Source of the DNA: a virus
Strand: one strand, 5' to 3'
Length of the DNA: 20,680 nt
IMG/VR virus record: IMGVR_UViG_3300024518_001531
Location: 1 to 20,680 of that record
A model generated the notes under the pieces. It worked only from the letters and a program-made list of their open reading frames with translations. It searched no databases and was not told the origin of the DNA. Below are positions 2,186 through 20,169 of this stretch, piece after piece (position 1 is the first letter of the stretch; each line of letters starts with the position of its first letter). Made by a program: the position numbers and the translations under genes.

Positions 2186-2188
2186 TTG

Positions 2189-2197
2189 TGGTATAAT
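2189..2197 (+). promoter_or_regulatory. Extended -10 promoter of the head genes, leaderless
   Basis: TGGTATAAT is a perfect extended -10 element (TGn plus TATAAT at 2192-2197). The ATG of the next gene begins 7 bases after the hexamer, which is where transcription would start, so the mRNA would have no leader. No convincing -35 hexamer lies at normal spacing; TTGGAC at 2172 is only 14 bases away and lies inside the dyad. The same arrangement occurs at 15700. Confidence 0.65.
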
Positions 2198-2203
2198 ATC
2201 AAC

Positions 2204-4622: not shown

Positions 4623-4642
4623 TTATTAGTTAAGGTAAGAAT

Positions 4643-5056
4643 ATGACAATATTAGTATCAAAAATCTTAACTGCTATGGCAGCCGTAGCCCTCTTAATGG
4701 GAGGAGTAGTTGCTTTAACAGTACAAGATTTGAGTTTAGGGTCAGCAGGTGAAGTACCAGCACTTCAAGGAATTGCAACAACCACCGCAGTAGGGCCACA
4801 AGAAGTCATTACAGTATTTGCAAACAAAGCAAACTGTTCTTCAAGGGTAATTAGTACCACTGATGGAACAGGACAAGCTATTCAAGTGTTGTTTGGTGCA
4901 CCTACAAATGGAGATATAACAACTCCAACAGAAGTAGTAGGACACCTACAAGCAGCAAGTACAACAGCTATGTATGACGCAGGGTTATACGGTTGTGGAG
5001 CTTGGAAAGTACACGCATCAGCATCTACAACTCTATTGATTTCAGAGTTTAGATAA
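4643..5056 (+). CDS. Membrane-anchored beta-rich protein, possible decoration or fibre protein
   Basis: This 137-aa protein begins with MTILVSK and a hydrophobic helix at about residues 8-27 (ILTAMAAVALLMGGVVALTV). The remainder is rich in Thr, Ser, Ala and Gly with beta-like alternation (EVITVFANKANCSSRVIS) and has two Cys residues that could pair (about residues 55 and 115). It has no charged cytoplasmic tail and no clear signal-peptidase site, so anchoring and cleavage are both possible. It lies between the portal and scaffold genes, where capsid decoration proteins are often found, and the next larger gene has the same design. The sequence just upstream holds AAGG eight bases before the ATG, one of few Shine-Dalgarno-like sites here. 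Function is unknown. Confidence 0.75.
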   Translation: MTILVSKILTAMAAVALLMGGVVALTVQDLSLGSAGEVPALQGIATTTAVGPQEVITVFANKANCSSRVISTTDGTGQAIQVLFGAPTNGDITTPTEVVGHLQAASTTAMYDAGLYGCGAWKVHASASTTLLISEFR

Positions 5057-5066
5057 ACATTATAAT
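5036..5066 (+). promoter_or_regulatory. Weak promoter candidate before the 36-aa gene
   Basis: TATAAT at 5061-5066 is a perfect -10 hexamer. TTGATT (5036-5041) is a four-of-six -35 match at a long 19-base spacing. Transcription would start about nine bases before the ATG at 5082. There is no TGn extension, and the region is AT-rich, so a chance match is possible. Confidence 0.3.
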
Positions 5067-5081
5067 TAACAGGACAAAATC

Positions 5082-5192
5082 ATGTCATTAGAGATAGCAA
5101 AGTTAAAGAGCCTCAAAGACAAAGTATACGGCAAGGAGGTCTTAAAAGAAGCAAAGAAAAAGGTCGGGAAAGTTTATAAGTCAAAGAAATAA
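5082..5192 (+). CDS. Lys-rich 36-aa peptide, unknown
   Basis: This short frame (MSLEIAKLKSLKDKVYGKEV and on) encodes 36 residues, 13 of them Lys, ending in YKSKK. It fills the gap between two larger genes almost exactly, with 25 bases before it and five after, and has AGGA seven bases before its ATG, one of the better Shine-Dalgarno matches in the window. The charge suggests nucleic-acid or capsid-interior binding, but this is inference. It could also be a remnant of a longer gene. I do not recognise a family. Confidence 0.6.
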   Translation: MSLEIAKLKSLKDKVYGKEVLKEAKKKVGKVYKSKK

Positions 5193-5197
5193 GTAAC

Positions 5198-5734
5198 ATG
5201 AATAAATTTCTAACAGCAGGAGTCGCAGTAGCGGTAGTGTTATCAGGCTTAGCTTTCTTCGGAATAGAAGATGGACTTGACGGCAGAGATGGGCGAGATG
5301 GTAGAACTGGTGCACAAGTAGGACCAGACCACTACGACACACAATACTTCCAAGCAGGAGCAGTATTTGGAGGTAAAGTAGCAACCTCTTCAGGTGAAGA
5401 TGCAACTGTTACGGTAGACGCAAGAGTTATTGACCAAGATTTATCTTACGTGTCATACACACCAAATATTGACCAAACAATAACAACACAAGCGAGTACA
5501 TCAGCACCATTTAGGAACTTGAAAGTAGGAGAATCATTCTCTCAACTATTCTATAACGCTTCAACTTCAGCTTCAGCAACAATTACGTTTGCAGCAGGTA
5601 CAGGAATTGACCTACAAGAAGATGAGGGTGAGACGGTTGTTCTTAATGGACTAGAAGTAGCTAGACTTACTTATGTCAAGAAAGCAGATACCGATATTAT
5701 TATGTGGGTAGAAGCAGGACAAGTAGGAGACTAA
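5198..5734 (+). CDS. Membrane-anchored protein with collagen-like segment
   Basis: This 178-aa protein has an N-terminal hydrophobic helix (about residues 4-22, after MNK) followed directly by five collagen-type triplets GLD-GRD-GRD-GRT-GAQ (26-40). A Ser/Thr/Ala-rich beta region follows, with a closing segment GETVVLNGLEVARLTYVKKA that resembles C-terminal trimer domains of phage fibres. Gly-X-Y repeats commonly form a triple-helical stalk, so a trimeric, surface-exposed protein is plausible. Its place just before the scaffold gene is unusual for a fibre and fits a capsid decoration fibre. The start has no Shine-Dalgarno sequence but carries the AATAAGTAACATG element also found at 15716. Function is inferred only. 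Confidence 0.78.
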   Translation: MNKFLTAGVAVAVVLSGLAFFGIEDGLDGRDGRDGRTGAQVGPDHYDTQYFQAGAVFGGKVATSSGEDATVTVDARVIDQDLSYVSYTPNIDQTITTQASTSAPFRNLKVGESFSQLFYNASTSASATITFAAGTGIDLQEDEGETVVLNGLEVARLTYVKKADTDIIMWVEAGQVGD

Positions 5735-5742
5735 TTATTATG

Positions 5743-5804
5743 AGTTCTCACATCTCTTCAAAAGTGATTAACAGTTCTCACATCTTATAAGTGAATAGTT
5801 CTCA
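5743..5804 (+). repeat. Degenerate tandem repeat before the scaffold gene
   Basis: AGTTCTCACATCT occurs at 5743-5755 and 5773-5785, and the first eight bases recur at 5797-5804, giving starts 30 and 24 bases apart. AAGTGA recurs in step (5762-5767 and 5789-5794). The palindrome CTTATAAG lies at 5784-5791. The block fills most of the 75-base gap before the scaffold ATG. It may bind a protein or result from slippage; no function is proven. Confidence 0.7.
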
Positions 5805-5809
5805 ATACT

Positions 5810-6412
5810 ATGGAAAACAATGACAATACTCCAACAGACGTTGTGGAGTCAGATGACAACGTCACAGAACCAGCACCAGAGCCTACTGAAGATTCAGAGG
5901 AAGAAGCAGTAGACGTAGAAGCCCTTAAAGCTGAAATGGAATCTTTAAAGAAAGATAATGAAGACCTAGCAGACAAGTTAGCCAAAAAGAGGATAACTAA
6001 ACGCAAAAGTAATCAGGCTGATTCTAAAAAAGAAACACAATCAGACGGACTAGATTATGCACAGAAAGCATTTCTGAATACAGAGGGAATCAAAGAGTTT
6101 GATTTCGTTGAAAAACAGATGAAAGAAAGTGGCATACATGATGTTGAAAAGATATTAGCTAACGGTTACTTCCAAGCTCAACTCAAAGAACACAGAGACT
6201 CAGTTGCAGTTAAGGAAGCCACACCATCAGGCACTCGTACCGACTCTAAACCATCTAACACCAAAGTAGATTACTGGATTGATAAAGGGGAGCTTCCACC
6301 TAATGATGCAGATAATGTAAAACTAAGGAGAGAGGTGGTAAACGAGAGGATTAAACGCAGCAAGTCAGGCAATAACTTCTCACAACAGGCGATTGTAGAC
6401 GCTTTCAATTAA
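5810..6412 (+). CDS. Scaffold-like capsid assembly protein
   Basis: Probably guides assembly of the major capsid protein and leaves the shell before or during packaging. The 200-aa protein starts with a very acidic, disordered region rich in Glu, Asp and Pro (about 1-35), followed by a coiled coil (EALKAEMESLKKDNEDLADKL, about 38-58) and a basic patch (KKRITKRK). The C-terminal part around VDYWIDKGELPPND and VNERIKRSK resembles the ends of known phage scaffold-type proteins. Low aromatic content, acidic start and basic helical end are typical of scaffolds, and the gene sits directly before the capsid gene. No protease domain is seen. The start lacks a Shine-Dalgarno sequence and follows the repeat block at 5743-5804. 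Confidence 0.72.
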   Translation: MENNDNTPTDVVESDDNVTEPAPEPTEDSEEEAVDVEALKAEMESLKKDNEDLADKLAKKRITKRKSNQADSKKETQSDGLDYAQKAFLNTEGIKEFDFVEKQMKESGIHDVEKILANGYFQAQLKEHRDSVAVKEATPSGTRTDSKPSNTKVDYWIDKGELPPNDADNVKLRREVVNERIKRSKSGNNFSQQAIVDAFN

Positions 6413-6421
6413 CATCTAGCC

Positions 6422-6449
6422 AGTCTGAATTAACAGCAAAATTCAGATT
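6422..6449 (+). promoter_or_regulatory. Hairpin just before the capsid gene
   Basis: AGTCTGAATT and AATTCAGATT form a 10-bp stem with one G-T wobble and an 8-base loop (AACAGCAA). The stem ends three bases before the capsid ATG, with no T-run after it, so it is not a standard terminator. It could stabilise the capsid message, be an RNA-processing site or control initiation. Confidence 0.6.
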
Positions 6450-6452
6450 ATT

Positions 6453-7328
6453 ATGGCAAACACACTAGGAGCAGGAGGAACTTCGTCAGTATATAAGGAA
6501 GAATGGCTAACTAAACTTCAAGAAAGATTAGACAAGCCAGTTACATTTAAAGAAGTATGTGACGTTACCTATTCAGATAACTACATCTTCAATGTACCTT
6601 ATATGAGTACAGAGTTTTCGGCTCAAACAGGAACACGAGGAACAGCTTACAGCTTCTCTGACTTTACTCTTACAAATGAACAACTTACCATTTCCACAAA
6701 GGAGGTAGTACCAATTTTCATTGACCGAGCAGACCAAGCACAATGTACATACGTTTCACAAATGGAAATGGCTGAAAGACAAGCTGCACTTCTACTTGAT
6801 AAAGTAGAGTCAGCAGTTCTAGCAGACCACGCAGCATGGACAGACGTAGGTGATGTCGCAGGAGTAATTACTTCAGGAAACACTACACAAGCAACCGTAT
6901 CAGCAACTAACATTGATGATATTGTTCGTGGTGTACGAAGAATTATTACTGTAGCTAACGGTGAAGAACTAGCAAACCGCAACGGTATCTTCTTCGTATG
7001 GCGACCAGCAGACTTTGAAGCACTAGAACAATTTGCACAAGCAAACGGATTCAACCTTGCAGACGCAGCGTTGAAGTCAGGTATTGACAAGGGTTATTAC
7101 CTACTTGGTGCATACCACTATGTTTCAAACTCACACACTGCAAATCACGTATTCGCAGGTGTTCGTAAAGTACACAAAGTAGGTATTCTACGAAGCACAT
7201 GGGGACAAATCGTTGTAACACAAGACCCTAACCTACAATCAGGAGTAGGTCTTATTGCACGAGCAGACTTCGGAGTAAAGACTCCAACAGGACTAAAATC
7301 AATTCTCTACGATATTAACGTAACTTAA
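6453..7328 (+). CDS. Major capsid protein (HK97-fold type)
   Basis: Main building block of the icosahedral shell. The 291-aa protein follows the scaffold gene, as expected, and has the composition of a coat protein: no signal sequence, balanced charge and alternating beta and helical segments. It starts MANTLGAGGT and continues with an N-arm helix region (YKEEWLTKLQERL). A segment ISTKEVVPIFIDRADQAQC (about 81-99) precedes a long spine helix (VSQMEMAERQAALLLDKVESAVLADHAAW). A later segment (VWRPADFEALEQF) and the C-terminal 'GVGLIARADFGVKTP' region resemble P22-like or related coats. The assignment is from context and overall pattern. No Shine-Dalgarno sequence is present despite expected high expression; hairpins flank the gene on both sides. 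Confidence 0.78.
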   Translation: MANTLGAGGTSSVYKEEWLTKLQERLDKPVTFKEVCDVTYSDNYIFNVPYMSTEFSAQTGTRGTAYSFSDFTLTNEQLTISTKEVVPIFIDRADQAQCTYVSQMEMAERQAALLLDKVESAVLADHAAWTDVGDVAGVITSGNTTQATVSATNIDDIVRGVRRIITVANGEELANRNGIFFVWRPADFEALEQFAQANGFNLADAALKSGIDKGYYLLGAYHYVSNSHTANHVFAGVRKVHKVGILRSTWGQIVVTQDPNLQSGVGLIARADFGVKTPTGLKSILYDINVT

Positions 7329-7339
7329 TTGTTCTTATA

Positions 7340-7363
7340 CTTAGCCCTTTTACGAGGGTTAAG
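7340..7363 (+). promoter_or_regulatory. Hairpin after the capsid gene, overlapping the next gene's RBS
   Basis: CTTAGCCCT and AGGGTTAAG form a 9-bp stem with one G-T wobble and the loop TTTACG. It lies 11 bases after the capsid stop and ends two bases before the next ATG. The 3' arm contains GAGGG, the only Shine-Dalgarno-like sequence for the first glycosyltransferase, so folding would hide it. There is no T-run, so it would not be a normal terminator. It could limit glycosyltransferase expression relative to capsid. Confidence 0.6.
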
Positions 7364-7365
7364 AT

Positions 7366-7941
7366 ATGGGAGTAAAGATTTGCTTGGGATTACCCACAAA
7401 CAGAGGGATAAAGCCAAAAACCGCACAATCTTTGTTGGAAATGGTTTTGAGTACCCCAGCAAACTTCCATGCAGTTGTTTCAACAAAAGGATATAACACA
7501 GCAGAGAATCGTAACTGGATTACTGCCAAAGCCTTTCAAGCAGGTTGTACGCATCTTCTCTTACTAGATGACGATATGGTTTACACCCCAGATGGGATAA
7601 ACAAACTATTGGCTCACAAGAAAGAGATAGTAGGTGCTAAGTACAGCGTTAGGAGGATAGTTGAGGACAAATCAATTAACCACGAAGTCATAGAGTATGG
7701 AGATGACCGTAGCGAAACAGATTTGTTCAAGTGTCAAGCGTTAGGTGGAGGATTGCTTCTCATAGACCTAAGTATCATTCCAAAGATGAAGACACCGCTA
7801 TTCTGGTACAAAGTATTGGATATAGGCATGGTGGAGATGAGTAACGATTGGTGGTTCTGTGAGAGAGCTAGAGAGGCTGGGTATGACGTTTGGTGCGACC
7901 CTACGATTAAATTAGGACACATAGGAGAATATGAATACTAA
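7366..7941 (+). CDS. GT-A fold glycosyltransferase, first of a tandem pair
   Basis: Likely transfers a sugar from a nucleotide-sugar donor to an unknown acceptor. The 191-aa protein shows an N-terminal Rossmann-like strand (KICLGLPTNRGIKPKT), a metal and nucleotide-binding acidic cluster LLLLDDDM (DDD at 68-70), and a C-terminal segment SNDWWFCERAREAGYDVWCD (159-178) followed by IKLGHIG, where the Asp of ND and the His usually serve catalysis and metal binding. In the paralogue the same position reads GED, so here Glu is replaced by Asn while the following Asp is kept. It is short for family 2, so acceptor-binding extensions are minimal. It overlaps the next gene by 11 bases. Capsid or host glycans are possible targets. 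Confidence 0.83.
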   Translation: MGVKICLGLPTNRGIKPKTAQSLLEMVLSTPANFHAVVSTKGYNTAENRNWITAKAFQAGCTHLLLLDDDMVYTPDGINKLLAHKKEIVGAKYSVRRIVEDKSINHEVIEYGDDRSETDLFKCQALGGGLLLIDLSIIPKMKTPLFWYKVLDIGMVEMSNDWWFCERAREAGYDVWCDPTIKLGHIGEYEY

Positions 7942-8509
7942 AGTAGCCATAGGAGTCCCTTGTAACAGGGTTATAAAGCCAAAGACCATGCAGAGTTTAC
8001 TGGAGATGGTTCATTACTCGGTAGATGTTGATTTAGTCCCTATCATAGCGACAGAGGGCTATACAATTTCAGAGAATAGAGCCTATATCTTAGCCCAAGC
8101 CATGAAAGTTGATTGTGATTACCTACTATTCGTAGATGATGACATGATATTTCCAAAGAATACGCTAGAGCAGTTACTCTCACACAAGAAAGAGATTATC
8201 GGAGTTCCGTACTACTCACGAAAGCTACCAAGAGAGTCAGTTGTGGTATATGAAGACGGCACAGAGGTTAAAGGAGAGTTACCAGAAGACCTCTTTAAGT
8301 GCCAGCACGTAGGAACAGGGATAATGCTCATTGATTTAAGTATTATAAACGACTTAGAGAAACCTTACTTCTTTATGAAGACACATGAAATAGGGTTTAC
8401 TTTAATGGGAGAAGACGCTTGGTTCTGCCAACAGGCACGAAAGGCAGGATTCAAGATATGGTGTGACCCCAATTTAGAAATTAAGCATATAGGCGACTAT
8501 ATTTATTAA
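7931..8509 (+). CDS. GT-A fold glycosyltransferase, second of a tandem pair
   Basis: Paralogue of the gene before it and of almost the same length (192 aa). Shared elements in order are IGVPCNRVIKPKTMQSLLEM (7-26; the first protein has LGLPTNRGIKPKTAQSLLEM), SENRAYI, LLFVDDDM (DDD at 69-71), LLSHKKEIIG, LFKCQ, IDLSII, the catalytic-type segment GEDAWFCQQARKAG (160-173) and CDPNLEIKHIGDY (178-190). The middle (about 95-120), where acceptor contacts are expected, differs most, so the two may act in sequence on one glycan or on different acceptors. AGGAG lies only three bases before the ATG, too close for normal use; coupling to the upstream gene is likely. Its last codons hold the TATATT of a possible promoter for the next gene. 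Confidence 0.84.
   Translation: MNTKVAIGVPCNRVIKPKTMQSLLEMVHYSVDVDLVPIIATEGYTISENRAYILAQAMKVDCDYLLFVDDDMIFPKNTLEQLLSHKKEIIGVPYYSRKLPRESVVVYEDGTEVKGELPEDLFKCQHVGTGIMLIDLSIINDLEKPYFFMKTHEIGFTLMGEDAWFCQQARKAGFKIWCDPNLEIKHIGDYIY
8498..8503 (+). promoter_or_regulatory. Possible leaderless -10 for the adaptor gene
   Basis: TATATT (five of six matches to TATAAT) lies seven bases before the ATG at 8511, the same spacing as the stronger element at 15703. There is no TGn extension and no clear -35. The following TTATTAACATGGCA is shared with the start of the gene at 12448. The element is also coding sequence for Tyr-Ile, so chance is possible. Confidence 0.3.
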
Positions 8510-8510
8510 C

Positions 8511-9263
8511 ATGGCATTATTTAGCGACACAACCACAAAAGACGGACTCATTCAAAGATTTGAGTTTTGGACACGCATGAAAGACGGTTCTGTAACAGGA
8601 ACACTCTTAAAGCAGGTCACATCAAGGATAAATACGGCATTTGAGAAAATCATGCCTATTTTGCTTTCATATAGCGACTATATCCGCTTTGACGATACAC
8701 AAAACCACACAGATAGACCTATCGGAACAGTAAACATTGTATCAGGACAAGCAGACTACACGATTAAAACAGACGACAATTCCCTAGATATTTTAAACAT
8801 AAACGCAGTAAGAGTGCTTACAAGTGCATCAGGCACAGAGTACGCAACGCTAGAACGACTCACATTAGATGATGAGAGAGTATTAGACGCTATGAGTCCT
8901 AATCCTAGTAATACTGGCGTACCAAGTCACTTCGTAGAGCAAGGAAACAACATATTCCTCTACCCAGAGCCTAATTATGCAGCCACAGACGGCATTAAAC
9001 TCTTCTTTCAGAGAGAACAAAGATACTTCCTATCTACAGACACCACAGATAAAGAGTCAGGATTACCTAAAATCTTTGATGAACTACTCGTATTACACGC
9101 AGCAAACGACTGGATTGCCGTAAATCGTGCAGACGACCCAAGACTTCACAACGAAATCCAACTACAAATACAGAAGATGGAGAAGAACTTAAAGAACTTC
9201 ATAGACATGAGAAACCCTACAAAGGTCAAAATGACTATGAAAGCACCACATAACTTCCGCTAA
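8511..9263 (+). CDS. Head-tail adaptor (connector) protein
   Basis: Probably forms the ring below the portal to which the short tail attaches. The 250-aa protein has an N-terminal helical part (about 10-60) with INTAFEKIMPILLSYSDYIRF, a beta-rich middle (VNIVSGQADYTIKTDDNSLDI) and a segment PSHFVEQGNNIFLYPEPNYA followed by DGIKLFFQRE and a C-terminal helical part (FDELLVLHAANDWIAVN, then a charged helix). This layout, with the 'GNxIFLYPxP' turn and DGIKLFF strand, recurs in adaptor or tail-tube A-like proteins of podoviruses. Position after the capsid module and before the nozzle-like protein supports it. The start has no Shine-Dalgarno sequence. Which exact adaptor family it belongs to is unsure. 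Confidence 0.68.
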   Translation: MALFSDTTTKDGLIQRFEFWTRMKDGSVTGTLLKQVTSRINTAFEKIMPILLSYSDYIRFDDTQNHTDRPIGTVNIVSGQADYTIKTDDNSLDILNINAVRVLTSASGTEYATLERLTLDDERVLDAMSPNPSNTGVPSHFVEQGNNIFLYPEPNYAATDGIKLFFQREQRYFLSTDTTDKESGLPKIFDELLVLHAANDWIAVNRADDPRLHNEIQLQIQKMEKNLKNFIDMRNPTKVKMTMKAPHNFR

Positions 9264-9264
9264 T

Positions 9265-9444
9265 ATGACGAATCAATCACGAAACTTAGGAACAGTAACA
9301 AATGACGCATTAACGTCACGCAGTACAACATGGGCTGACGCTAATTTTACGTGGGCAGAGGGAGGTGGCACATGGGATAATCCACACGACTTAGGCAACC
9401 AAACAAGGAATTTAGGAACTATGACTAACCAAGCAACATCATGA
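9265..9444 (+). CDS. 59-aa repeat-ended structural protein candidate
   Basis: This small gene fills the space between the adaptor and fibre genes exactly: it starts one base after the adaptor stop and its TGA overlaps the next ATG (ATGA). The protein carries a near repeat at both ends, NQSRNLGTVTNDA (3-15) and NQTRNLGTMTNQA (45-57), around a Trp/Gly-rich centre (TTWADANFTWAEGGGTWDNP, 21-40). Short proteins with Asn/Ser/Thr-rich repeats and Trp motifs are seen in some phage structural clusters, so a minor tail or fibre-attachment role is plausible. The codons of the two repeats differ, so the duplication is old or selected at protein level. I do not know a defined function. Confidence 0.72.
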   Translation: MTNQSRNLGTVTNDALTSRSTTWADANFTWAEGGGTWDNPHDLGNQTRNLGTMTNQATS

Positions 9445-10535
9445 AGAATATAATTACATCATTTATAATATCAGTCGTTGTAGTAGTGGGATTTGCTAAC
9501 CTATACCCACTTTTTAAGAATGATAACTTAGGAGCTACACTCACGACCTTAAATAGCTCTGACAACTTGGTAGACTTTCCTACAACTTACAATGCCAATA
9601 ACACAGCTATAAACACTGAATTAGGTCTTATTTCGGGAACGACAACTATTCCTAGTATTACAACTCTTACAGGACTCACAACGATAGGAACTATCGGAAC
9701 GGGGGTGTGGGAGGCAACAGATGTGGGAGTTGCTCATGGAGGAACAGGCAAATCAGCTTGGACTCAGTACCTTATTCCTTACGCAGACACTACGACATCA
9801 TTTTCACAAATAGCAATAGGGACTTCAGGACAATTCTTAACATCAGGAGGTGCTGGGGTAGCTCCGTCTTTCACGACTTCAGCAATCAACCAAGCACTAG
9901 ACTACAGCTTCACAGGAACTTACTTTGGAATAGATAATCTTTATGCTTCATCAACCCTAAACATAGCAGGTGTAGATTACACTTTCCCATCAACAGACGG
10001 AGCAAGTTCAACCGTATTTATGACAGATGGAGCAGGAGCTATGACTTCTTATAGACCAGATTGGCACTTACTAGATGTCGTAGAGACTACAGCCGTAGAC
10101 AACGCAACCTCAACATTCGCTACGGCAGAAAACCTGATGCTTGTGTATTCATGGACAGCCTGTGCAACAGGGTGTAATGCAAGAGTGACATTTAATGGGT
10201 TGTCAGACGGCAACTACGGAAGCCACATATCTGTTGATAATGGAGCATTTACTGATGCAAGTGATGTAGATTTCATGACAACCAGCAATTCGGGTGGAAC
10301 TGCCGCAACGCAAGGTGTGGTATACATCAAAAACGTATCGTCACAAAGGAAACTAGCGACCTTTTCAGGCTCAACTTTTGCTGGCGGCTCAACAGCACCA
10401 TCAGATTCAGCAGAAGGTTCAGGAGTATGGGACAACACATCAGCACAGATTACATCATTAAATATAGAAAGTAGCGATACTGTAGGCAGGAACTTTACCA
10501 ACTTAAAGATTTACGTTTACGGAACAAATAACTAA
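9441..10535 (+). CDS. Fibre-like protein with N-terminal membrane helix
   Basis: This 364-aa protein starts with MKN and a hydrophobic helix (about 4-23, IITSFIISVVVVVGFANLYP). Thr/Ser/Gly-rich beta repeats follow, including LTTLNSSDNLVDFPTTYNAN (36-55) and the segments TGLTTIGTIGTGVWEATDVG and HGGTGKSAW, a repeat type common in tail fibres. Its C-terminal domain (about 210-364) looks like a beta-sandwich or trimer tip and ends LKIYVYGTNN. In tailed phages fibres normally lack membrane anchors, so the N-terminus is odd: it could insert into the host membrane before assembly or act as a hydrophobic assembly peg. It lies between the adaptor and nozzle-like genes, consistent with a tail-associated fibre. 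A receptor cannot be guessed. Confidence 0.76.
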   Translation: MKNIITSFIISVVVVVGFANLYPLFKNDNLGATLTTLNSSDNLVDFPTTYNANNTAINTELGLISGTTTIPSITTLTGLTTIGTIGTGVWEATDVGVAHGGTGKSAWTQYLIPYADTTTSFSQIAIGTSGQFLTSGGAGVAPSFTTSAINQALDYSFTGTYFGIDNLYASSTLNIAGVDYTFPSTDGASSTVFMTDGAGAMTSYRPDWHLLDVVETTAVDNATSTFATAENLMLVYSWTACATGCNARVTFNGLSDGNYGSHISVDNGAFTDASDVDFMTTSNSGGTAATQGVVYIKNVSSQRKLATFSGSTFAGGSTAPSDSAEGSGVWDNTSAQITSLNIESSDTVGRNFTNLKIYVYGTNN

Positions 10536-10536
10536 T

Positions 10537-12075: not shown

Positions 12076-12428
12076 ACCCAGAACTAGAACTAATGAAAGC
12101 AGAATTAGCTGACCTCAAAGAAAAGTTTGAGAGACTACAGAAGTCAGACCGCTATGTATTTGAGAGAGATTTAGAACTTCAAACAGGTAGGAATATTCAA
12201 CTAGCCACAGACACAGGAACAAAGATTGGTACGGGGATAGACCAGAAGTTAGGTTTTTACGGAGAAACACCAAAAGTCCAAGCAACAGTAGCCAATACAA
12301 GCAACGCAGCATTTACAGAAGACAGTGGCACTACAGTAAATGTGGAATCAACCTTTGGAGGTTGGAGAATAAAAGAGGTGGTACAAGCTCTTATTAACAT
12401 AGGTATATTAGATGGAACAGCAGATTAA
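12072..12428 (+). CDS. Small coiled-coil fibre-type protein
   Basis: A 118-aa protein with an N-terminal coiled coil (ELELMKAELADLKEKFERLQ, about 4-23) followed by RNIQLATDTGTKIGTGIDQK and LGFYGETPKVQAT. The latter segment is widespread at the ends of phage fibre or virion-surface proteins, where it forms a trimeric beta tip. It ends with a helix (GGWRIKEVVQALINIGILDG). Both parts suggest a trimer. It overlaps the nozzle-like gene by four bases (ATGA), so the products are probably made in similar amounts. It might be a short fibre or an adaptor for a longer one. Confidence 0.7.
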   Translation: MNPELELMKAELADLKEKFERLQKSDRYVFERDLELQTGRNIQLATDTGTKIGTGIDQKLGFYGETPKVQATVANTSNAAFTEDSGTTVNVESTFGGWRIKEVVQALINIGILDGTAD

Positions 12429-12447
12429 AAAATAACTAATTATTAAC

Positions 12448-13980
12448 ATGGCAACAAATACTAAAATAGGAGATGACTTCCTTACAGACGAACAAAGGTC
12501 AAGCGTTGCTACGTCACAATTTCTCGTAGATAACGCCAATCAAAACATAACATCTGATTCTATCTCTGATACAGGGGAAGATTTGTTCGTTCCCGAAAGT
12601 CCACAAACAACAGACCAAACTGGTGTGATAGACCAACAACTCGCAGGACTACAACAGGGCGTAAGCACTATTGATAGCCAAATTGCAGGAACAGAAACTC
12701 AGAGTGATGATTTACGAACTCAGTTACTAGAAACTCTAAGTGGTCTAGGAGAAGAACAAGCACGAACACAAGAGCTTGAACAACAAGCAGGTTTAGGTAT
12801 TCAAAGAAAAGAGCTACAGAACGTAATAAATGAACTACAGACGTTGCAGAAAGAGGCTGCAGCGATACCACTTTCAATACAAGAAGAGTTTGCAGGTAGA
12901 GGTGCTACCGCAGCAGGTGTAGAGCCAATTCAAACAGGTAGACTACGACAGAACGCTATAAAAGCACTCAGTTTTGCAGCTATAGGACAAACTCTACAAG
13001 GAAACATCTCACTAGCAGAACAAACTATCGCAAGAGCTATTGATGCAGAATTTGAACCACAAAGACAGAAACTAGAAGTATTAGGACAGCTATACAAATT
13101 TAACCGAGAAGATTTAGAGAGAATTGATAAGAAAAGGTCAGACCAGCTAGGTCTTTACCTTGATGAACGCAAGAGAGTGCTAGATATTCAACAAGCAGAC
13201 AAACAAGAGATATATAACATAGGAACAATCGCACAACAGTACGGTGCAGACACTCAGACCGTACAAGCCATCTTTGAAGCTAAGACAAGAAAGGAAGCGG
13301 TATTGCTTGCAGGTAAGTACCTACAAGACCCACTAGCGAAACAAGACCTCATCAACGCAAGGTTAGAGAATGAACTAAAAAGGGCACAAATCAATAAAGT
13401 GGCTAGAGAAACAGCTTTGTTAGGAAAAGACGCACAAAACCAATTAACTATTGATACACAAAGAGCTTCTGATGCAGTACGAGCAGGAGAAGACCATATC
13501 GCCACACTTAACGGCTTACGAAACCACAAAGGAATGACTAAGGCTGTAGGTTCTTATAAAATAGCTCGTTGGACACCACTTCAAGTAGATAAGTCTGCTG
13601 TAAATGACTTTGTTTCAGGTGTAGAACAATACATTGACCAATTAACACTTGATAAGTTGATTGAGTCTAAGGCACAGGGAGCTACTTTCGGTGCTTTGTC
13701 TGATAGAGAGTTGCAAGTTATCGCAAGTGCAGCCACCAAGATTTCGGGTTACAGGAGAACACGAGATGATGGAAGTGTCTATTTTGAAGTAGACGAAGCA
13801 ACCTTTAGAGCAGAGTTGTTGAATCTACAGACAAAAATACAAGACGCTGTAAACAGAAAGCGAGGAGGAATCCTTGACGCAGGAGAAGTGTCCGTACTTG
13901 ACGAGGCTTTCCCTGACAACCAAACACAACCAGATGATTATTTTGGTATTACTAGCACAACACAAGCAACTAACTTTTAA
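12448..13980 (+). CDS. Internal virion (ejection) protein, long helical
   Basis: This 510-aa protein is almost entirely helical with many Gln, Glu, Ala and Leu residues. After a disordered N-terminus, long coiled-coil regions span about 60-140 and 190-330. Toward the C-terminus a segment GLRNHKGMTKAVGSYKIA (about 352-369), then FVSGVEQYIDQLTLDKLIES and GALSDRELQVIASAATKI, recalls a module found in proteins that podoviruses store in the capsid and eject to form a channel for DNA. It lies between tail and fibre genes next to a second protein of similar type. There is no membrane segment. It starts with TTATTAACATGGC, the same as the adaptor gene, and no Shine-Dalgarno sequence. A tape-measure role is an alternative. 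Confidence 0.62.
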   Translation: MATNTKIGDDFLTDEQRSSVATSQFLVDNANQNITSDSISDTGEDLFVPESPQTTDQTGVIDQQLAGLQQGVSTIDSQIAGTETQSDDLRTQLLETLSGLGEEQARTQELEQQAGLGIQRKELQNVINELQTLQKEAAAIPLSIQEEFAGRGATAAGVEPIQTGRLRQNAIKALSFAAIGQTLQGNISLAEQTIARAIDAEFEPQRQKLEVLGQLYKFNREDLERIDKKRSDQLGLYLDERKRVLDIQQADKQEIYNIGTIAQQYGADTQTVQAIFEAKTRKEAVLLAGKYLQDPLAKQDLINARLENELKRAQINKVARETALLGKDAQNQLTIDTQRASDAVRAGEDHIATLNGLRNHKGMTKAVGSYKIARWTPLQVDKSAVNDFVSGVEQYIDQLTLDKLIESKAQGATFGALSDRELQVIASAATKISGYRRTRDDGSVYFEVDEATFRAELLNLQTKIQDAVNRKRGGILDAGEVSVLDEAFPDNQTQPDDYFGITSTTQATNF

Positions 13981-13985
13981 GACTT

Positions 13986-15707
13986 ATGGCATTTAACGAA
14001 ACAGAATTAGCAATCATCAAGACTGGTAAGGAAAGCGGTAAGTCTCGCCAACAAGTTGAGGAGGCTTTGCAGAACTACCGACTTGGGATTACACCAAGTA
14101 AGAAAGAAAGGGTACAAAACCAGTTTGTAGACGGAAGAAAGAGTCCACTACGAGCTTTGGGTGACGTATCTTTAGGTGCGGTTAAGGGATTAACCGAAAC
14201 CGCTATTGCTCTACCAAGAGCATTACAAGCAGGAGGTCAGGCTGTACACGCAGGATTAGACCCTACACGAACATTCGCAGAAGTAAGAGAACAGACAGGT
14301 TTAGCCTCACTACAAGGAGATGACGCTGCCTTTATAGACGACCTCTTAAAAGCTAAAAACCCTGAACAACGAGCAGGAAAGATTATCGCCTTTGCAGGTG
14401 AACTTCTAGCAGGAGGGGGTGCTTCTCTATTGAAAAAAGGCTTTCAAAAGGGGACTGAGGCTGTGGGAGGTGTAGTTGGTAGGGGTAAAACCGCTATTAG
14501 TGAAGCTCTCCCATCAGGACTTAAACAAACGGTGTCAGAATTTGGAGAAAGAATCCCTAGATTGGGCGGTAGGGTAAGAGAGAGAGTTGAACAGGCTTCC
14601 GTAAGAGCAGAAAGAATAAGAAACGCCACCCCAGCTACTCAAAAAGCAATTAAATCAGGTGTAGACGACAGAATTATTGACTTTGTAGATGATGTAAAAC
14701 TTAACGCACCAGATACGCTTTCAGATTATAAAGAAATAGTAGACCTAGCAGAGAATGTTGGTGCTAGAGGTGCTGCACGACCAGAATTTATAGCAGGACA
14801 AAGGGCTGCTGAACAATACAAACTAGCAGACAAGGCAAGAAAAGACGTTGGAGGAAAGATTGGTGAGGCTGTAGACGCACTTTCAAAGAAACAGGGTGCA
14901 GTCAATATACTACCAGCACAACGAAATCTACGAATCCTATTGTCACAAAACGGAATACAACCAACAAAAGGTGGCAAGTTGGTGTTTGAGGCTACTGAAT
15001 ACACACCAGCACAACAAAAGAAAATACAAGAACTCTATGACATAGCAACAAAGAGTGAAAACTTCACAGCACGACAGATATGGGGATTTGATAAGCAGTT
15101 CTCACAACTACAAAGAACAGCACGATTTGATTCAGAGATAGGAGACATATTTATTAAGACAGCAGATGGAGGAGATACAAGTATCTTCAAGGCATTTAGA
15201 GATGTCTATTCAGGAGAGCTTGAAAACATAGCACCAGAAATACGAGTCCTTAACCGAGAATACGCACAGTGGAGAACTCTCATAGATGACGTTGAAAGTT
15301 CAATCGTCAAGCGAGGTAACTTCTCAGGTACTTCAAAGGTAGACCCTGCTGAATTTGCACAGACCAACCTACGCAGGATATTTAGTGACGCTACAAGTGC
15401 TGCTGACTATAGGGCTATCTATAACAACTTAGATGAGGCTTCAAGAACTTTGGGCTACACAGGCTCACGAGCAGATGACCTAGCGTGGTTTGCAACAAGA
15501 ATGAGACAAATCTTCCCTGAAACAGTCCCAGAGACATCAGCTACTAAGATACTTGGTGGTGGTGTGAAACAAACAACAGAAAAAGTCCTAGAAGCAGGTA
15601 AGCCTAGCTTAGTAGACCAACAGAGAGCAATTAGAGAGATGTTGGAAGAGGCACTTGGTCAAGGGTCTTTTAAACAGGGCGTAATCCCTATTAACAGCGT
15701 GGTATAA
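13986..15707 (+). CDS. Second internal virion (ejection) protein with amphipathic segments
   Basis: This 573-aa protein is helical and rich in Ala, Gly, Lys and Arg. A Gly/Ala/Leu-rich region at about 131-165 (KIIAFAGELLAGGGASLLKK, then GTEAVGGVVG) and another at about 55-90 could insert in or lie along membranes, as expected for ejected proteins that help DNA cross the envelope. The C-terminal half is charged, with conserved-looking IWGFDKQFSQLQRTARFDSE and QTNLRRIF segments. No enzymatic motif such as a lysozyme or protease is visible, in contrast to some ejection proteins. Five bases separate it from the first ejection-type gene. Its final codons Val-Val-stop (GTG GTA TAA) form the extended -10 of the next transcript. 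Confidence 0.6.
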   Translation: MAFNETELAIIKTGKESGKSRQQVEEALQNYRLGITPSKKERVQNQFVDGRKSPLRALGDVSLGAVKGLTETAIALPRALQAGGQAVHAGLDPTRTFAEVREQTGLASLQGDDAAFIDDLLKAKNPEQRAGKIIAFAGELLAGGGASLLKKGFQKGTEAVGGVVGRGKTAISEALPSGLKQTVSEFGERIPRLGGRVRERVEQASVRAERIRNATPATQKAIKSGVDDRIIDFVDDVKLNAPDTLSDYKEIVDLAENVGARGAARPEFIAGQRAAEQYKLADKARKDVGGKIGEAVDALSKKQGAVNILPAQRNLRILLSQNGIQPTKGGKLVFEATEYTPAQQKKIQELYDIATKSENFTARQIWGFDKQFSQLQRTARFDSEIGDIFIKTADGGDTSIFKAFRDVYSGELENIAPEIRVLNREYAQWRTLIDDVESSIVKRGNFSGTSKVDPAEFAQTNLRRIFSDATSAADYRAIYNNLDEASRTLGYTGSRADDLAWFATRMRQIFPETVPETSATKILGGGVKQTTEKVLEAGKPSLVDQQRAIREMLEEALGQGSFKQGVIPINSVV

Positions 15708-15708
15708 T
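15700..15708 (+). promoter_or_regulatory. Extended -10 promoter of the fibre/lysis genes, leaderless
   Basis: TGGTATAAT repeats the element at 2189 exactly, with seven bases to the next ATG (15716), so the transcript would begin at or just before the start codon. The hexamer contains the stop codon of the preceding gene. No -35 hexamer is visible at normal spacing. A weak dyad AGGGcgtaatCCCT (15676-15689) lies upstream in coding sequence. Confidence 0.62.
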
Positions 15709-15715
15709 AAGTAAC

Positions 15716-16504
15716 ATGGCAACTATAAAACAAGAAAAACTAAATAAGCTAGCCCAAGAGGTGAAACAAGCCTTTAAGGAGGCAGAGAACGAACTCACTC
15801 GTGAGGAATTTCTTGATGCAATCAAAGATATTGTAGCTTTCGTAAAGAAAATAAAGCAAGAAAACGTACAAGAAGTTGCCACAATGAAAGAGATTTCTGC
15901 CAAAGACAGCAGGAGGTTAGCAGAAAAAGCAGCACAGTCAGAACAAGCCCTAAAACAAGAAATAAAGAAATCATTTGAACAAGCCTTTAGTGAACAACAA
16001 GGTTCGCTTAATTTTATACGAGACAAGGTTTCTAACTTTGAGAAACAAAAAGACAAGAACGAAGAGAGCCTAATAAGAGAAGTAATGGAACTCATACCAG
16101 AGATGCCTGAAATTAAATCCACTACACCAGTAGAAACACGAAACAAACTAGAAACGCTAAAAGGAGAAGAACGACTAGGGTGGACAGCAATACATGGACT
16201 AAAAGAAAAGCTAGAAGAACTTAAAGAAATGAAAGTCGGTGGTAAAGGAGGTGGAGGAACATCAGCTATGGGAGTACGATACGCACTAGGTAGCACAGCA
16301 GTAAAGGAAACACCAACAGGAGATATTGACGGAGCTAATACTACTTACACCGTAGGAAGAACGATTAACTTAGTAGTATCTTTTGCTATCAATGGACAAG
16401 TCATAACAGATGATGAATACACAGTAGCAGGAAAAACAATAGAAATGACGACTGCTATACCAGCAGCATTATCAGGGACTAGCTTTCGTATAGTATACGT
16501 TTAA
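15716..16504 (+). CDS. Coiled-coil fibre protein with beta tip domain
   Basis: The 262-aa protein has a long coiled-coil N-terminal two-thirds (about 3-172, Lys/Glu/Ala/Gln-rich), then a Gly hinge (KVGGKGGGGTS, 173-183) and a C-terminal domain of about 65 residues with ETPTGDIDGANTTYTVGRTI, FAINGQVITDDEYTVAGKTI and FRIVYV. This tip is a common phage fibre beta-sandwich. The protein lacks the N-terminal membrane helix of its neighbours, so it probably attaches by its coiled coil. It is the first gene after the second extended -10 promoter, and the AACATGGC start context matches other genes in the window. Confidence 0.76.
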   Translation: MATIKQEKLNKLAQEVKQAFKEAENELTREEFLDAIKDIVAFVKKIKQENVQEVATMKEISAKDSRRLAEKAAQSEQALKQEIKKSFEQAFSEQQGSLNFIRDKVSNFEKQKDKNEESLIREVMELIPEMPEIKSTTPVETRNKLETLKGEERLGWTAIHGLKEKLEELKEMKVGGKGGGGTSAMGVRYALGSTAVKETPTGDIDGANTTYTVGRTINLVVSFAINGQVITDDEYTVAGKTIEMTTAIPAALSGTSFRIVYV

Positions 16505-16508
16505 TATT

Positions 16509-18524
16509 ATGATAGAAGATTTAAAAACATTAGGCATAGTAGCAGTAGCATTTACGCTAATATTTGGTGCTGTCTTTGTCAAAGATAGAGTTGGAGGAGA
16601 AGAGAACGTAGGATTAGCACTATACTTACCCGTACAGCTTAATAGTGTAGATACAGCAGGAGATGGAGAGTGTCTCTCTTATCAAAGTGCCACTTCAAAG
16701 TTTGAGTGGATTTCTTGTGGTGGAGCAGGAGGTTCTACTTTGCACGTAGACGCTACTGGCTCAGTTTACCCAGCAGACGGTGACTATCACTCAGCACCTT
16801 ATTACACAGCAACCTCAACAGCTACAGCCTCAACATTCCCATTTGCTTCTACAACAGCACTCACAGCTACGAACTTGTTTGGTGCTTTAACTGGCAACGC
16901 AGACACAGCTACTGCCCTTGCTGCCAATGGTGGTAACTGTGCAGCTGGAGAAATTGCTTTAGGAGTTGATACAGCAGGTGCAGTAGAGGGCTGTTATGAG
17001 CCAACAGAGGGCGATATAACAGACTTAGCCCACCTTACCTTTCCGTGGACACCGACAGCTTTAGGAAATTCAACATCAACATTATTGCAACTTACAGCAG
17101 GAGCACTCATCACAGGAAGTTCTACAGTAACAGGACAACTTAATGTTTGGGATGAAGGAACAGGAGCTCACGATGCTTTTGATGCAACCTTTGGAGACCC
17201 AGATGACTACGGAGCTATTCAAATTGGAAACACTGAAATTTATTCTTCTTCCTTTAGTGCGAGTAACCTAGACTTAGATAAAGCATTTCTTCTCAGACAA
17301 ACTGGAAATATTGGAGCTGGTAATGACCCAGGAATTGAATTTGCTTGGATGGAACAAGGAAACGCTGTCCGTATGGCTATCCCAGAAAGTGGAGCTGGAA
17401 ATGCTACTGCTATGATTAGGTCAGTTACAATTGCTGGGCCATATGCTGCTGCAACAGGAAACAACATTGTCCTTTGTGACACTTGGTCTACATACAACAC
17501 AAACATAGACTGTGATACGGGTGGTACGGGAGCAGACCTCTTTGTTCAAGACGACTTAGAAGTAGAAGGAGAACTATATCTTTCTGGCTCAATTTATGGC
17601 GATGCAGATGACGCTTCACAGCACCAAATTGTTTTTGCTAACGCAACAGCAGACCACATTCTCACTATCCCAGACGACACGATAGCTAGTGGAGACTTGC
17701 TCGTAGGTAGTGGAGCTGGAACATTTGTGTACACAGCAAAGGGCTCAATAAACCTCGGAGACTTTAACGATAACCTTACTCACTATGTAGACGCAGACGT
17801 TTCAACATACTTAACTGGTGGTACGGGAATTACAGAGTCGGGAGGAACTCTTACTTTTGATTGTTCAGAAGTAGAGGGGGTGGGAATTAACTGTGCAACA
17901 GAAGCAATCACACTAGACCTATCGCTTAATAATGCTTGGACAGGTACAGGAACAACAACTTTTGCAGGAGATATAGATGTGGCTGACGCTATGGAAGCAG
18001 GTTACTTTACAGGAACAGGTGCTACTTCAACCTTTGCCAATGGCTTAGACCTTACCACAGGTTGTTTAGCGTACAACGGAACTTGTATTACAGTTGAAAC
18101 CATTACAGCAGGAGATTATCTAACAAAAACAGCGAGTGATATTGATTTAGACGTAGAGATTTATACAGAAACATTTACTTTCTCTATAGCTTCTTCAACC
18201 CTCTCTACAACAACTTCTGCAACTCAGCACAAATTACCCAATGCGATAACTATTACTAGAGCAACTTGCTCAACTAACGCAGGGACAACTAGCTTACAAG
18301 TTGATGAGAGAGCAGAAGCCACTCCTAACACAGCAGGAACAGATGTGTTCACAGATTCATTCTCTTGTGGAAGTGGTTTTACTAACGCTACAAGTTCGTT
18401 CAGTAATGCTAGCATCACAGCAGACAATATTCTTAATCTTGATGTAGACACGACAGACGACCAATCTTCGGGTGCTACTCCAACAAATGCATTTCTACAC
18501 ATTGAATACACGATAGATGATTAA
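16509..18524 (+). CDS. Long membrane-anchored fibre-like protein
   Basis: At 671 aa this is the largest product. A hydrophobic helix lies at about 7-25 (TLGIVAVAFTLIFGAVFV), then a short Cys-containing module (GDGECLSYQSATSKFEWISC, 51-70), a Thr/Ala/Ser stretch with NLFGALTGNADTATALAANG and GVDTAGAVEGC (122-162), repeated beta segments, two Cys-pair-like spots (TFDCSEVEGVGINC) and a C-terminal domain (about 551-671) rich in Ser, Thr and Asn. The stretch at 98-162 is the one that most recalls CPR-associated phage contigs. Charges flanking the helix (MIEDLK before, KDR after) leave its orientation unclear. It ends eight bases inside the next gene. Likely a receptor-binding or stalk fibre. Confidence 0.76.
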   Translation: MIEDLKTLGIVAVAFTLIFGAVFVKDRVGGEENVGLALYLPVQLNSVDTAGDGECLSYQSATSKFEWISCGGAGGSTLHVDATGSVYPADGDYHSAPYYTATSTATASTFPFASTTALTATNLFGALTGNADTATALAANGGNCAAGEIALGVDTAGAVEGCYEPTEGDITDLAHLTFPWTPTALGNSTSTLLQLTAGALITGSSTVTGQLNVWDEGTGAHDAFDATFGDPDDYGAIQIGNTEIYSSSFSASNLDLDKAFLLRQTGNIGAGNDPGIEFAWMEQGNAVRMAIPESGAGNATAMIRSVTIAGPYAAATGNNIVLCDTWSTYNTNIDCDTGGTGADLFVQDDLEVEGELYLSGSIYGDADDASQHQIVFANATADHILTIPDDTIASGDLLVGSGAGTFVYTAKGSINLGDFNDNLTHYVDADVSTYLTGGTGITESGGTLTFDCSEVEGVGINCATEAITLDLSLNNAWTGTGTTTFAGDIDVADAMEAGYFTGTGATSTFANGLDLTTGCLAYNGTCITVETITAGDYLTKTASDIDLDVEIYTETFTFSIASSTLSTTTSATQHKLPNAITITRATCSTNAGTTSLQVDERAEATPNTAGTDVFTDSFSCGSGFTNATSSFSNASITADNILNLDVDTTDDQSSGATPTNAFLHIEYTIDD

Positions 18525-19842
18525 AAACATTCTCAAAGTAATAGGACTATCACTTACGGCAATATTCTTTGCTGTAGGTGTAATCTTCTTTACTGGAACA
18601 CCAGAGCTTCCTTTAGGAGTACCGTTTAATCAGCAAGACTTGATAGATGCGATTCCTAGTAATTTTCAAATAGGAGATGAAGATACTGCCTTTGCTTGGA
18701 CAGACGATAATACAGATGAGGATATAATCATACGCACAGACTCTAGGAATTACCACTCTTGGGGAAGTGCTGTGATTATGCACGTAAGCATTACCAATGT
18801 ACATAAATTTGACCAGAACGTAGGATTAGTGTTCTCGTTCCCAGATGCAAGGTATGTGGCAGAGAAGTATATGCGTTTCACAGGAAACTCATCAACTACA
18901 TCACAAGTGGTCACAGCCTTACCGAAAGACCCACATGGAGTACCAACCTTTGAAACGGTGGAACACCTAGAAGCCCAATATCAAGAGCTTGTCTTAACGG
19001 GTGTTGATACACGGGATATAAGTTCTATCTCACGTAAAGACATCAAAGCTAATCTAACTCAAAATAATGTCGCTGTATTGAATATCGCTAGTGGGGAGAC
19101 AGCCATCTTTAAGGTGTATGTGAAGTTTCCAAAAGGTGTAGAGGGACAAGAATACTTCTTGGAAGCCTTTGGCGATAGGGGTGCATACGGACACCTTGAC
19201 CCTAATTCATGGGATTTTGAAGATGATTTTGAAGCGTATGGTACAGGTTTTCTTACTGGAAACGGTGATTGGACAGAAACATCTAACACATATGACGTAG
19301 TTAGTAGTCCTGTGTACGAGGGAACGAGAGGGGTTGAGTGTCCTGAGGTTTGTAATAAAGCTGCCAATGCTAATTTCACAGACATATCAGATGATGGTGC
19401 AGAGGTGTGGTGGGCGTTTATGAACGATAATGGTATGCCCGCAAGTGGTGACTCTACTTTTAGGGTTATGGAAGGTGGTGGGAACAGAGTCTTAGTCGGT
19501 GTTCACAGTGGAACAATTAAATGGGGTCATGGCTCACCAACAGGGGGTCTTGATACGATTATTTCAGCAGTTAGTGGTAGGTGGTATATTGCAAATGTAC
19601 AAATGGCAGATGATGGAACACATAGGGTCAGAATTTATGACACTGTTACAGAAGTGTGGAGTAGTTGGACTTCTTGGGACACTGGATATTACATTAGTAC
19701 CAGTGGTGATTTTACAAGTTTGAACCTCAACACAGGTGGAACAGGTGACGCCCATTATGACTTAATCACAGCAACAGACCCATTAGCGGCAGGGGGTGCT
19801 CCTGCGGGTTGGGAAGATGTAATTATCATTAGCAAAAATTGA
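18517..19842 (+). CDS. Membrane-anchored protein with lectin-like C-terminal domain
   Basis: This 441-aa protein begins MIKNILK and has a hydrophobic helix (about 8-26, VIGLSLTAIFFAVGVIFFT), followed by a beta-rich domain (about 55-220: VGLVFSFPDARYVAEKYMRF, then VAVLNIASGETAIFKVYVKF) and a linker LEAFGDRGAYGHLDPNSW (215-232). The C-terminal half (about 233-425) starts with DDFEAYGTGFL and contains GRWYIANVQMADDGTHRVRI, the pattern of a jelly-roll (concanavalin/LamG-like) lectin or glucanase fold. No catalytic Glu-x-Asp-x-x-Glu motif is seen, so sugar binding is more likely than cleavage. It overlaps the fibre gene by eight bases. It may mediate adhesion to surface polysaccharide. Confidence 0.74.
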   Translation: MIKNILKVIGLSLTAIFFAVGVIFFTGTPELPLGVPFNQQDLIDAIPSNFQIGDEDTAFAWTDDNTDEDIIIRTDSRNYHSWGSAVIMHVSITNVHKFDQNVGLVFSFPDARYVAEKYMRFTGNSSTTSQVVTALPKDPHGVPTFETVEHLEAQYQELVLTGVDTRDISSISRKDIKANLTQNNVAVLNIASGETAIFKVYVKFPKGVEGQEYFLEAFGDRGAYGHLDPNSWDFEDDFEAYGTGFLTGNGDWTETSNTYDVVSSPVYEGTRGVECPEVCNKAANANFTDISDDGAEVWWAFMNDNGMPASGDSTFRVMEGGGNRVLVGVHSGTIKWGHGSPTGGLDTIISAVSGRWYIANVQMADDGTHRVRIYDTVTEVWSSWTSWDTGYYISTSGDFTSLNLNTGGTGDAHYDLITATDPLAAGGAPAGWEDVIIISKN

Positions 19843-19843
19843 T

Positions 19844-19951
19844 ATGAAGTTTATACTATACATACACAAGAAGTTATTTTGGAAAAGCATTTTGAACTAT
19901 CCATTTATTGTTTGGAAAGGTAAGATTTTGGATTTGAGACAGATAACATGA
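19844..19951 (+). CDS. 35-aa aromatic, basic peptide, possible membrane peptide
   Basis: The ATG lies one base after the preceding stop, and the TGA overlaps the next ATG (ATGA at 19948-19951), so the frame fits the gap exactly. The peptide (MKFILYIHKKLFWKSILNYP and PFIVWKGKILDLRQIT) has many aromatic and large hydrophobic residues with scattered Lys, resembling small membrane-active or amphipathic peptides. Given the holin-like gene next door, a role in lysis is a reasonable guess. It is too short for family recognition. It may also be a leader peptide controlling the next gene. Confidence 0.5.
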   Translation: MKFILYIHKKLFWKSILNYPFIVWKGKILDLRQIT

Positions 19952-20169
19952 GCAGAAACAGTAAAGGACAATTTGTAATAGGAATAGGAATAGCAGTATC
20001 AATATTGATTACAGTTGTTGGAGGTGCTTCAGCTTTCTTTGTAGGACAAGGAAGACAAGATTCAGAGATAGCGGTTGTAAGAAACGAACAAGCCAACCTT
20101 AAAGATGATGTGTCTGAGATTAAGTCAGACGTTAAAGAAATCCTAAGAGCATTAAATGAGTCTAAATAA
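19948..20169 (+). CDS. Holin-like protein, one membrane helix plus coiled coil
   Basis: This 73-aa protein has a basic N-terminus (MSRNSKGQ), one membrane helix (about 9-33, FVIGIGIAVSILITVVGGAS) and a C-terminal coiled coil (IAVVRNEQANLKDDVSEIKS followed by DVKEILRAL, about 41-69). Small single-span proteins with a coiled-coil tail next to a hydrolase gene are commonly holins or lysis-control proteins, but a membrane-tethered tail protein is possible. It overlaps the peptide gene before it and the peptidase gene after it (14 bases), which supports joint expression. Positive charge before and Arg/Asp/Glu after the helix fit an N-in, C-out topology. The start shows AACATG without a Shine-Dalgarno sequence. 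Confidence 0.6.
   Translation: MSRNSKGQFVIGIGIAVSILITVVGGASAFFVGQGRQDSEIAVVRNEQANLKDDVSEIKSDVKEILRALNESK

Follow-up and report, generated by a model that had tools for sequence, protein, structure and literature searches.

Introduction

Why should the spike-like and fibre-like proteins of a tailed phage begin with a membrane helix? The question is raised by a 20,680-base viral contig, a linear fragment (IMG/VR record IMGVR_UViG_3300024518_001531, positions 1 to 20,680) that is referred to in its entirety as the window, in which five open reading frames on the + strand, starting at 4643, 5198, 9441, 16509 and 18517 and named here N1 to N5, each open with one hydrophobic helix. Because particle assembly in tailed phages is regarded as taking place entirely inside the cytoplasm, membrane leaders on their spikes and fibres are unexpected. 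An earlier note on the window, which had located the five starts correctly, proposed that such proteins might be exported and displayed on the infected cell, inserted into the virion after membrane passage, or held by the helix as an assembly peg, and suggested that the repeated design may be an undescribed strategy.

On balance, the sequence comparisons discussed below favor a tailed phage of podovirus-like type in which the proteins for head decoration, head spikes, and tail fibres bear removable export leaders. No description of leadered, exported, and cleaved spikes or fibres in tailed phages was found in the open-access literature, and as far as that literature shows, the suggestion of an undescribed strategy stands. 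Exported spikes and fibres that carry a release motif, together with a candidate protease, would break the rule of cytoplasmic assembly and provide a directly testable maturation pathway; if the full pathway were true, it would represent a new kind of virion maturation.

The N-terminal helix in the window and its relatives

Across N1 to N5, the best 19-residue Kyte-Doolittle mean is 2.16-2.39 and falls within residues 4-26, whereas the N-terminal hydrophobicity of the other window genes stays below 1.6, with the sole exception of a 73-residue holin-like protein (19948). Relatives were gathered by means of the capsid protein and its alignment, through which 231 contigs were matched and 80 kept, and three further relatives were found in genome bins; the helix counts cover 87 loci in addition to the window. 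The family is a large uncultivated podovirus-like group of at least 231 contigs. The search of related genomes proposed in the earlier note recovered the same anchor-plus-fibre design, the helix being present in 126 of 149 homologues of N1 to N5 but, among core proteins such as terminase, portal, capsid, scaffold, and adaptor, in only 1 of 606. Its absence from close relatives, which would have spoken against the idea, was not seen, since every close relative has it. Because protein-level conservation of the helix, at the same gene positions, extends across relatives with capsid identities of about 43-74%, the start codons are not mis-called. The slot between portal and scaffold genes holds at least one anchored protein in 63 of the 72 loci that span it, and nine more distant loci have no anchors in this head slot.

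The five proteins differ considerably beyond the helix. N1 (4643..5056) is a small head-module protein of 137 residues with a helix at 2-29, a flexible linker, and a jelly-roll-like beta domain at 42-136, its cysteines being Cys65 and Cys118. N2 (5198..5734), a head-spike-like protein of 178 residues, combines the helix with a Gly-X-Y collagen-like stretch and a beta domain at 49-175 and contains no cysteine. The tail-fibre-like N3 (9441..10535) has 364 residues and two cysteines, Cys241 and Cys245, while the large fibre-like N4 (16509..18524; 671 residues) and the fibre-like N5 (18517..19842; 441 residues) contain 12 and 2 cysteines, respectively. The description of a direct switch from helix to Ser/Thr-rich beta sequence therefore needs correction for N2, in which the short collagen-like stretch stands at that place, and it had overlooked a spacer with a common motif between helix and domain.

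Evidence for export

The net charge of these proteins is positive ahead of the helix and slightly negative behind it, with the charge before the helix exceeding that after it in 96 of 113 cases and being lower in 3. The features of a Sec signal-anchor, namely a basic N-terminus, a hydrophobic core, and a less positive C-terminal flank, are thus all present. A second line of evidence comes from cysteine parity, as extracytoplasmic proteins prefer even cysteine numbers (PMC7678975). Among the mature domains, made non-redundant at 50% identity, 53 have an even number of cysteines, 2 an odd number, and 28 none, compared with 36 even, 58 odd, and 131 without cysteine among cytoplasmic phage proteins (Fisher p about 9e-14, with kinship below 50% identity left uncorrected). 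The same even-cysteine preference is shown by exported paired-cysteine proteins of hosts, the difference being that it occurs here in virion-type proteins of a phage. In addition, classical signal peptides, such as ...TAYA|APNFS and ...ATALA|APVS, are found in fibre-position proteins of relatives. Taken together, the even cysteine numbers, the positive-inside charge, and the signal peptides of classical type on related fibres argue for proteins that are exported and disulfide-bonded, and export of the N1-N5 type is accordingly regarded as very probable from sequence; it would also explain the paired cysteines in spike and fibre proteins.

The same observations bear on the assembly-peg option, according to which the helices are never inserted into a membrane and act as hydrophobic pegs or trimerisation helices enclosed within the virion. 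Cytoplasmic assembly is usual in tailed phages, and a collagen-like protein such as N2 needs trimerisation, both of which would suit this option. It is nevertheless improbable and was rejected on the basis of cysteine parity, positive-inside charge, and the classical signal peptides and lipoboxes that replace the helix in equivalent proteins, to which is added the repeated gain or loss of the leader while the domain is kept. Of the three options in the earlier note, export is therefore the one upheld and the peg is disfavored.

A shared motif between anchor and domain

The spacer that follows the helix varies from 2 to about 50 residues and is closed, across otherwise unrelated families, by the motif [LVFI]-G-[AS], written here as phi-G|[AS] with the predicted cut marked. 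Typical examples are LG|SAPSGL in homologues of N1, LG|AFPGPD for N2, and LG|ATVTTINGSD for N3, and in the N2 homologue of locus L020 a collagen repeat of about 50 residues separates the helix from the motif. In the window, the predicted processing sites on the + strand are L-G|S in N1 (residues 32-34, 4736..4744, mature start 4742), T-G|A in N2 (residues 37-39, 5306..5314; phi-G|A in most homologues), and L-G|A in N3 (residues 30-32, 9528..9536, mature start 9534), with candidate sites V-G|L in N4 (16608-16616) and L-G|V in N5 (18613-18621). The mature N-termini predicted from the sites of N1, N2, and N3 are SAGEVPALQ..., AQVGPDHYD..., and ATLTTLNSS..., respectively. In an AlphaFold model of N1, the site falls in the low-confidence linker between helix 2-29 and beta domain 42-136.

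Of 108 non-redundant anchored proteins (N1, N2, N3, and head-slot types), 79 have the motif no more than 55 residues from the helix. Chance was rejected as its origin, since later windows of the same proteins give 15-25% and shuffled sequences far fewer. A general export signal of the host was likewise rejected, as only 2 of 52 single-helix anchored proteins from a Parcubacteria genome contain the motif (79/108 versus 2/52, Fisher p about 3e-18). Two further observations concern the position of the cut. Leaderless N3 homologues within the same phage family start with MSVITTIN (L006) and MSTIVTIQ (L044), and in an alignment with LG|ATVTTIN their initiator Met comes to stand opposite G; a cut after G would thus give the same N-terminus as Met removal in these homologues. 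Moreover, the anchor can be exchanged while the motif is kept, as in N5, where a lipobox anchor with LG|A is found in place of the helix (G005; L116_4, LTGC followed by PLG|A), and in two further lipobox proteins (L116_1, LSGC...FG|A; L047_18, LSGC...TLG|A). Cleavage at phi-G|[AS] is considered likely on these comparisons.

Which enzyme would cut is a separate matter. The leader might be removed, after export as described above, by a host enzyme, either signal peptidase I or another host protease, and AxA-like sequences after the helix in some leaders (VAFA, IANA), as well as classical signal peptides on some fibres, are compatible with this. Signal peptidase I requires small residues at positions -3 and -1, shortly past the helix, and the phi-G site does not agree with this, since its residue -2 is hydrophobic, its position -3 is free, and its distance from the helix varies from 2 to about 50 residues; sites of the signal peptidase I type are found only in the fibres of some relatives. 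The rarity of the motif among the anchored Parcubacteria proteins (2 of 52) also speaks against a host enzyme, which is retained as a possible but less than even alternative.

The motif also affects two other readings. A conserved phi-G|[AS] between anchor and domain suggests release, so that display on the cell, the first option of the earlier note, would be at most a stage. Alternatively, the virion might contain a lipid membrane, or pass through one, into which the helices insert. The presence of several anchored proteins in the head module is in keeping with such a particle, but no other membrane-virion gene was seen, and a variable spacer ending in a cleavage-like motif argues for removal of the helix, making this reading very improbable.

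Likely virion roles and turnover of the leader

The structural model of N2 matches the capsid spike of Pa223 (9ny6) in Foldseek (E 3.1e-5, prob 1.0), although the TM score is only 0.35, and it matches T4 gp9 and gp10 as well as numerous proteins of fibre or collagen-like type from uncultured tailed phages. The predicted beta domain of N2 and the head-module location of its gene recall the Pa223 spike and T4 gp9/gp10, and N2 differs from them in having an export leader and a processing motif, the identity being about 14%. For the beta domain of N1, only weak matches were obtained, including a PM2 spike and a haloarchaeal phage turret. A leaderless N1-like gene is present in the head module of the podovirus ctNMl277, where it adjoins a P22-like portal gene upstream of a P22-type coat gene, and leaderless N3 matches tail-fibre and minor-tail PHROGs. 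From these similarities, the N1 to N3 types look like virion parts.

These predicted roles weigh on the idea that the exported proteins simply stay displayed on the infected cell as adhesins, decoys, or agents of superinfection exclusion, with the motif being incidental or serving for shedding. The N-in/C-out topology and the disulfide signature would be expected in that case too, and the fibre-like character of N4 and N5 and the ordinary signal peptides of several relatives are in its favor. It is nonetheless judged unlikely, given that in nearly all loci the genes for N1 and N2 are flanked by those of the presumed portal and scaffold, that leaderless homologues occupy the same head and tail positions, that the N2 model resembles a phage capsid spike, and that N3 is a tail-fibre homologue.

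The distribution of the leader was followed with a scan directed at N3, in which the leader design was found in all 13 fibres of loci with this capsid family; each of the 13 has a helix, which in two cases is just under the hydrophobicity cut-off, and LG, FG, or YG at the expected place. A general trait of such tail fibres was rejected, as none of about 46 visible N-termini in other loci has the leader. In the presumed-portal tree, leaderless members stand in several places, with seven changes by parsimony and at least five forced by well-supported branches, and this scatter shows the leaders to be modular, with repeated gain or loss. In four loci, the head slot contains both anchored and leaderless proteins. 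Gain and loss perhaps follow host type.

The papain-like peptidase

The candidate processing enzyme is encoded at the end of the window (20156..20680, + strand), where a papain-like cysteine peptidase is cut by the contig end before its catalytic His. With PF00112 alone, which exceeded its cut-off in four records, the peptidase appeared rare; clustering and a dedicated profile revealed it, in two diverged groups, in almost all near-complete leadered relatives and in nearly all relatives over 30 kb; a full-length homologue is encoded at L115:6310-7143 on the minus strand. Two peptidase homologues compared with 50,697 phage records gave no match, and in single-protein scans with two peptidases each retrieved only itself. 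The invariant columns of the alignment are a G in the N-terminal region, a Pro, the papain-type Gln and Cys, and a Glu. Membership in the papain (C1) family is indicated by the invariant Q46 and C52 and by a His and an Asn/Asp conserved in most rows; the conserved Gln, Cys, and later His and Asn/Asp are shared with known C1 peptidases, while the invariant motif G near the N-terminus sets the phage family apart.

This G lies in a phi-G motif of the peptidase itself, usually followed by A, S, or G, which reads RDFPLG|A in the window (L-G|A at 20213-20221) and QLG|A, LFG|A, IMG|A, or WLG|S elsewhere. At the second position ahead of the cut, papain-family enzymes favor hydrophobic residues, a preference that fits the phi-G sites of the leaders. 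That the phage peptidase does the cutting is a tentative proposal, somewhat short of an even chance on the present comparisons, and it is put forward as a hypothesis because leaderless relatives carry C1-type peptidases too, one of which may be an endolysin.

In most relatives, the gene ahead of the peptidase encodes a small membrane protein; in the window this is the single-helix protein of 73 residues (19948..20169, + strand), holin-like by a weak PHROG match. Separate amidase, M23, or SLT genes lie near the peptidase in three near-complete relatives, on which ground a role of the peptidase as sole endolysin was rejected; an added role in lysis is possible. As a side observation, a second gene beside the peptidase in one relative (L120 3860-5290, G015) has an N-terminus resembling the peptidase family.

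Proposed maturation pathway

The following sequence of events can be proposed. In the first and well-supported step, the helix would act as a Sec signal-anchor with the N-terminus inside and the C-terminus outside, the beta domain folding outside the cytoplasm and the paired cysteines forming disulfides. In the second, probable step, the anchor would be cut between G and A/S of the [LVFI]-G|[AS] that ends the flexible spacer, leaving an N-terminus equal to that of the leaderless homologues. The scissors of the third step may be the phage's own papain-like peptidase, which bears the same motif near its own N-terminus; it is leaderless and encoded beside holin- and endolysin-type genes, and it would reach the tethers once the membrane opens. 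As a peptidase without a leader would need holin action for contact with sites outside, release might then be timed to lysis, an attractive possibility. In the fourth step, the freed spikes and fibres would join virions at or after lysis, for which the chances are considered about even.

Taken as a whole, virions would be finished outside the cytoplasm from spikes and fibres that are Sec-exported, oxidised, tethered by helix or lipid, and cut at phi-G|[AS] by a lysis-timed phage papain-like peptidase, with leaders repeatedly gained and lost; this complete chain is possible, though at less than even odds. Several observations weigh against the proposed pathway. About a quarter of the anchored proteins lack the strict motif, and in the window N2 has T two positions ahead of the cut, while L or V follows G in N4 and N5. 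The helix of the N2 model is of low confidence. Anchored Parcubacteria proteins show a weak even-cysteine bias of 17:10, a weakness that implies, if the host belongs to that group, that the phage proteins exceed the bias of their host. C1-type peptidases also occur in two leaderless relatives, with R or T before G, and the C-terminal region of the L094 peptidase resembles a peptidoglycan-binding domain, by which the peptidase could be a lysis enzyme. Finally, a peptidase that lacks a signal has to get across the membrane before it can act on its sites.

The proposed pathway may be compared with known systems. Filamentous (M13-type) coat proteins are leadered, pass through a host export or insertion route, and are cleaved, and they resemble the present proteins as leadered, exported, and cleaved virion components; however, they are assembled in the membrane and extruded, whereas the window encodes a terminase, a weakly HK97-like capsid protein, an adaptor, and lysis-type genes. 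A phage of the filamentous type, with extrusion, a Zot-type ATPase, and a single-stranded DNA genome, was judged unlikely given the packaging terminase of tailed phages. Signal-arrest-release (SAR) endolysins of tailed phages are exported in a membrane-tethered form and later released, the difference being that a lysis enzyme is released there without proteolysis, and spikes and fibres with a cleavage-like site are concerned here. The protease-site signature could also be of use in annotating nameless spike and fibre proteins of uncultivated phages.

Gene content, host, and neighboring genes

The gene content of the window is that of a podovirus-like morphogenesis module, comprising a methyltransferase, the large terminase, a presumed portal, a scaffold-like protein, the capsid protein, and three large tail or ejection-type proteins, among which the presumed portal, scaffold, and tail roles are based on gene order. 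The large terminase matches phrog_2 (7.6e-31) and Terminase_3/3C above cut-off. The presumed portal (2467..4287, + strand), named from position and size only, gave no family match and no PDB match. The major capsid protein (6453..7328, + strand), which served as the marker for finding relatives, has weak HK97-type matches (phrog_267, 3e-6; Phage_capsid under cut-off) and no sequence match in PDB, and an SU10-type adaptor (8511..9263, + strand) is supported by a match of 7e-10. No isolated relatives of the capsid protein, presumed portal, N2, or peptidase were present among 50,697 phage records.

With regard to the host, genome binning is weak evidence. One relative, apparently split over contigs C18 and C28 (L112, L025), is contained in the Parcubacteria bin GW2011_GWB1_40_14 (G009), its peptidase being the one that carries WLG|S, and one leaderless relative sits in a Methylococcaceae bin. 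When the presumed portal was compared with 380 genomes of the Parcubacteria phylum, a strong full-length match was obtained only in the already known Parcubacteria bin.

Several smaller features surround the anchored genes. An unlisted open reading frame between N1 and N2 (5082..5192, + strand) encodes a Lys-rich microprotein of 36 residues, MSLEIAKLKSLKDKVYGKEVLKEAKKKVGKVYKSKK, with an SLKDK motif of the form SL-x-[DE]-[KR]; 44 of 62 loci have a similar frame upstream of N2, which in L051/L052 is in frame with the N2 N-terminus. Just before N3, a 59-residue frame (9265-9444) with repeated 'TN-S-N' and 'TW-D' segments is conserved in seven genomes. The capsid gene is followed by two glycosyltransferase-like genes (7366-8509), of a type found in 39 of the 63 loci that have anchored proteins in the head slot versus none of the 9 that do not, and they might modify the exported proteins. 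In L053/L056, at about 394-5000, the region that separates h111 from N2, upstream of the papain-like peptidase, contains additional anchored proteins of 189, 271, 308, and 698 residues, some of them with the motif.

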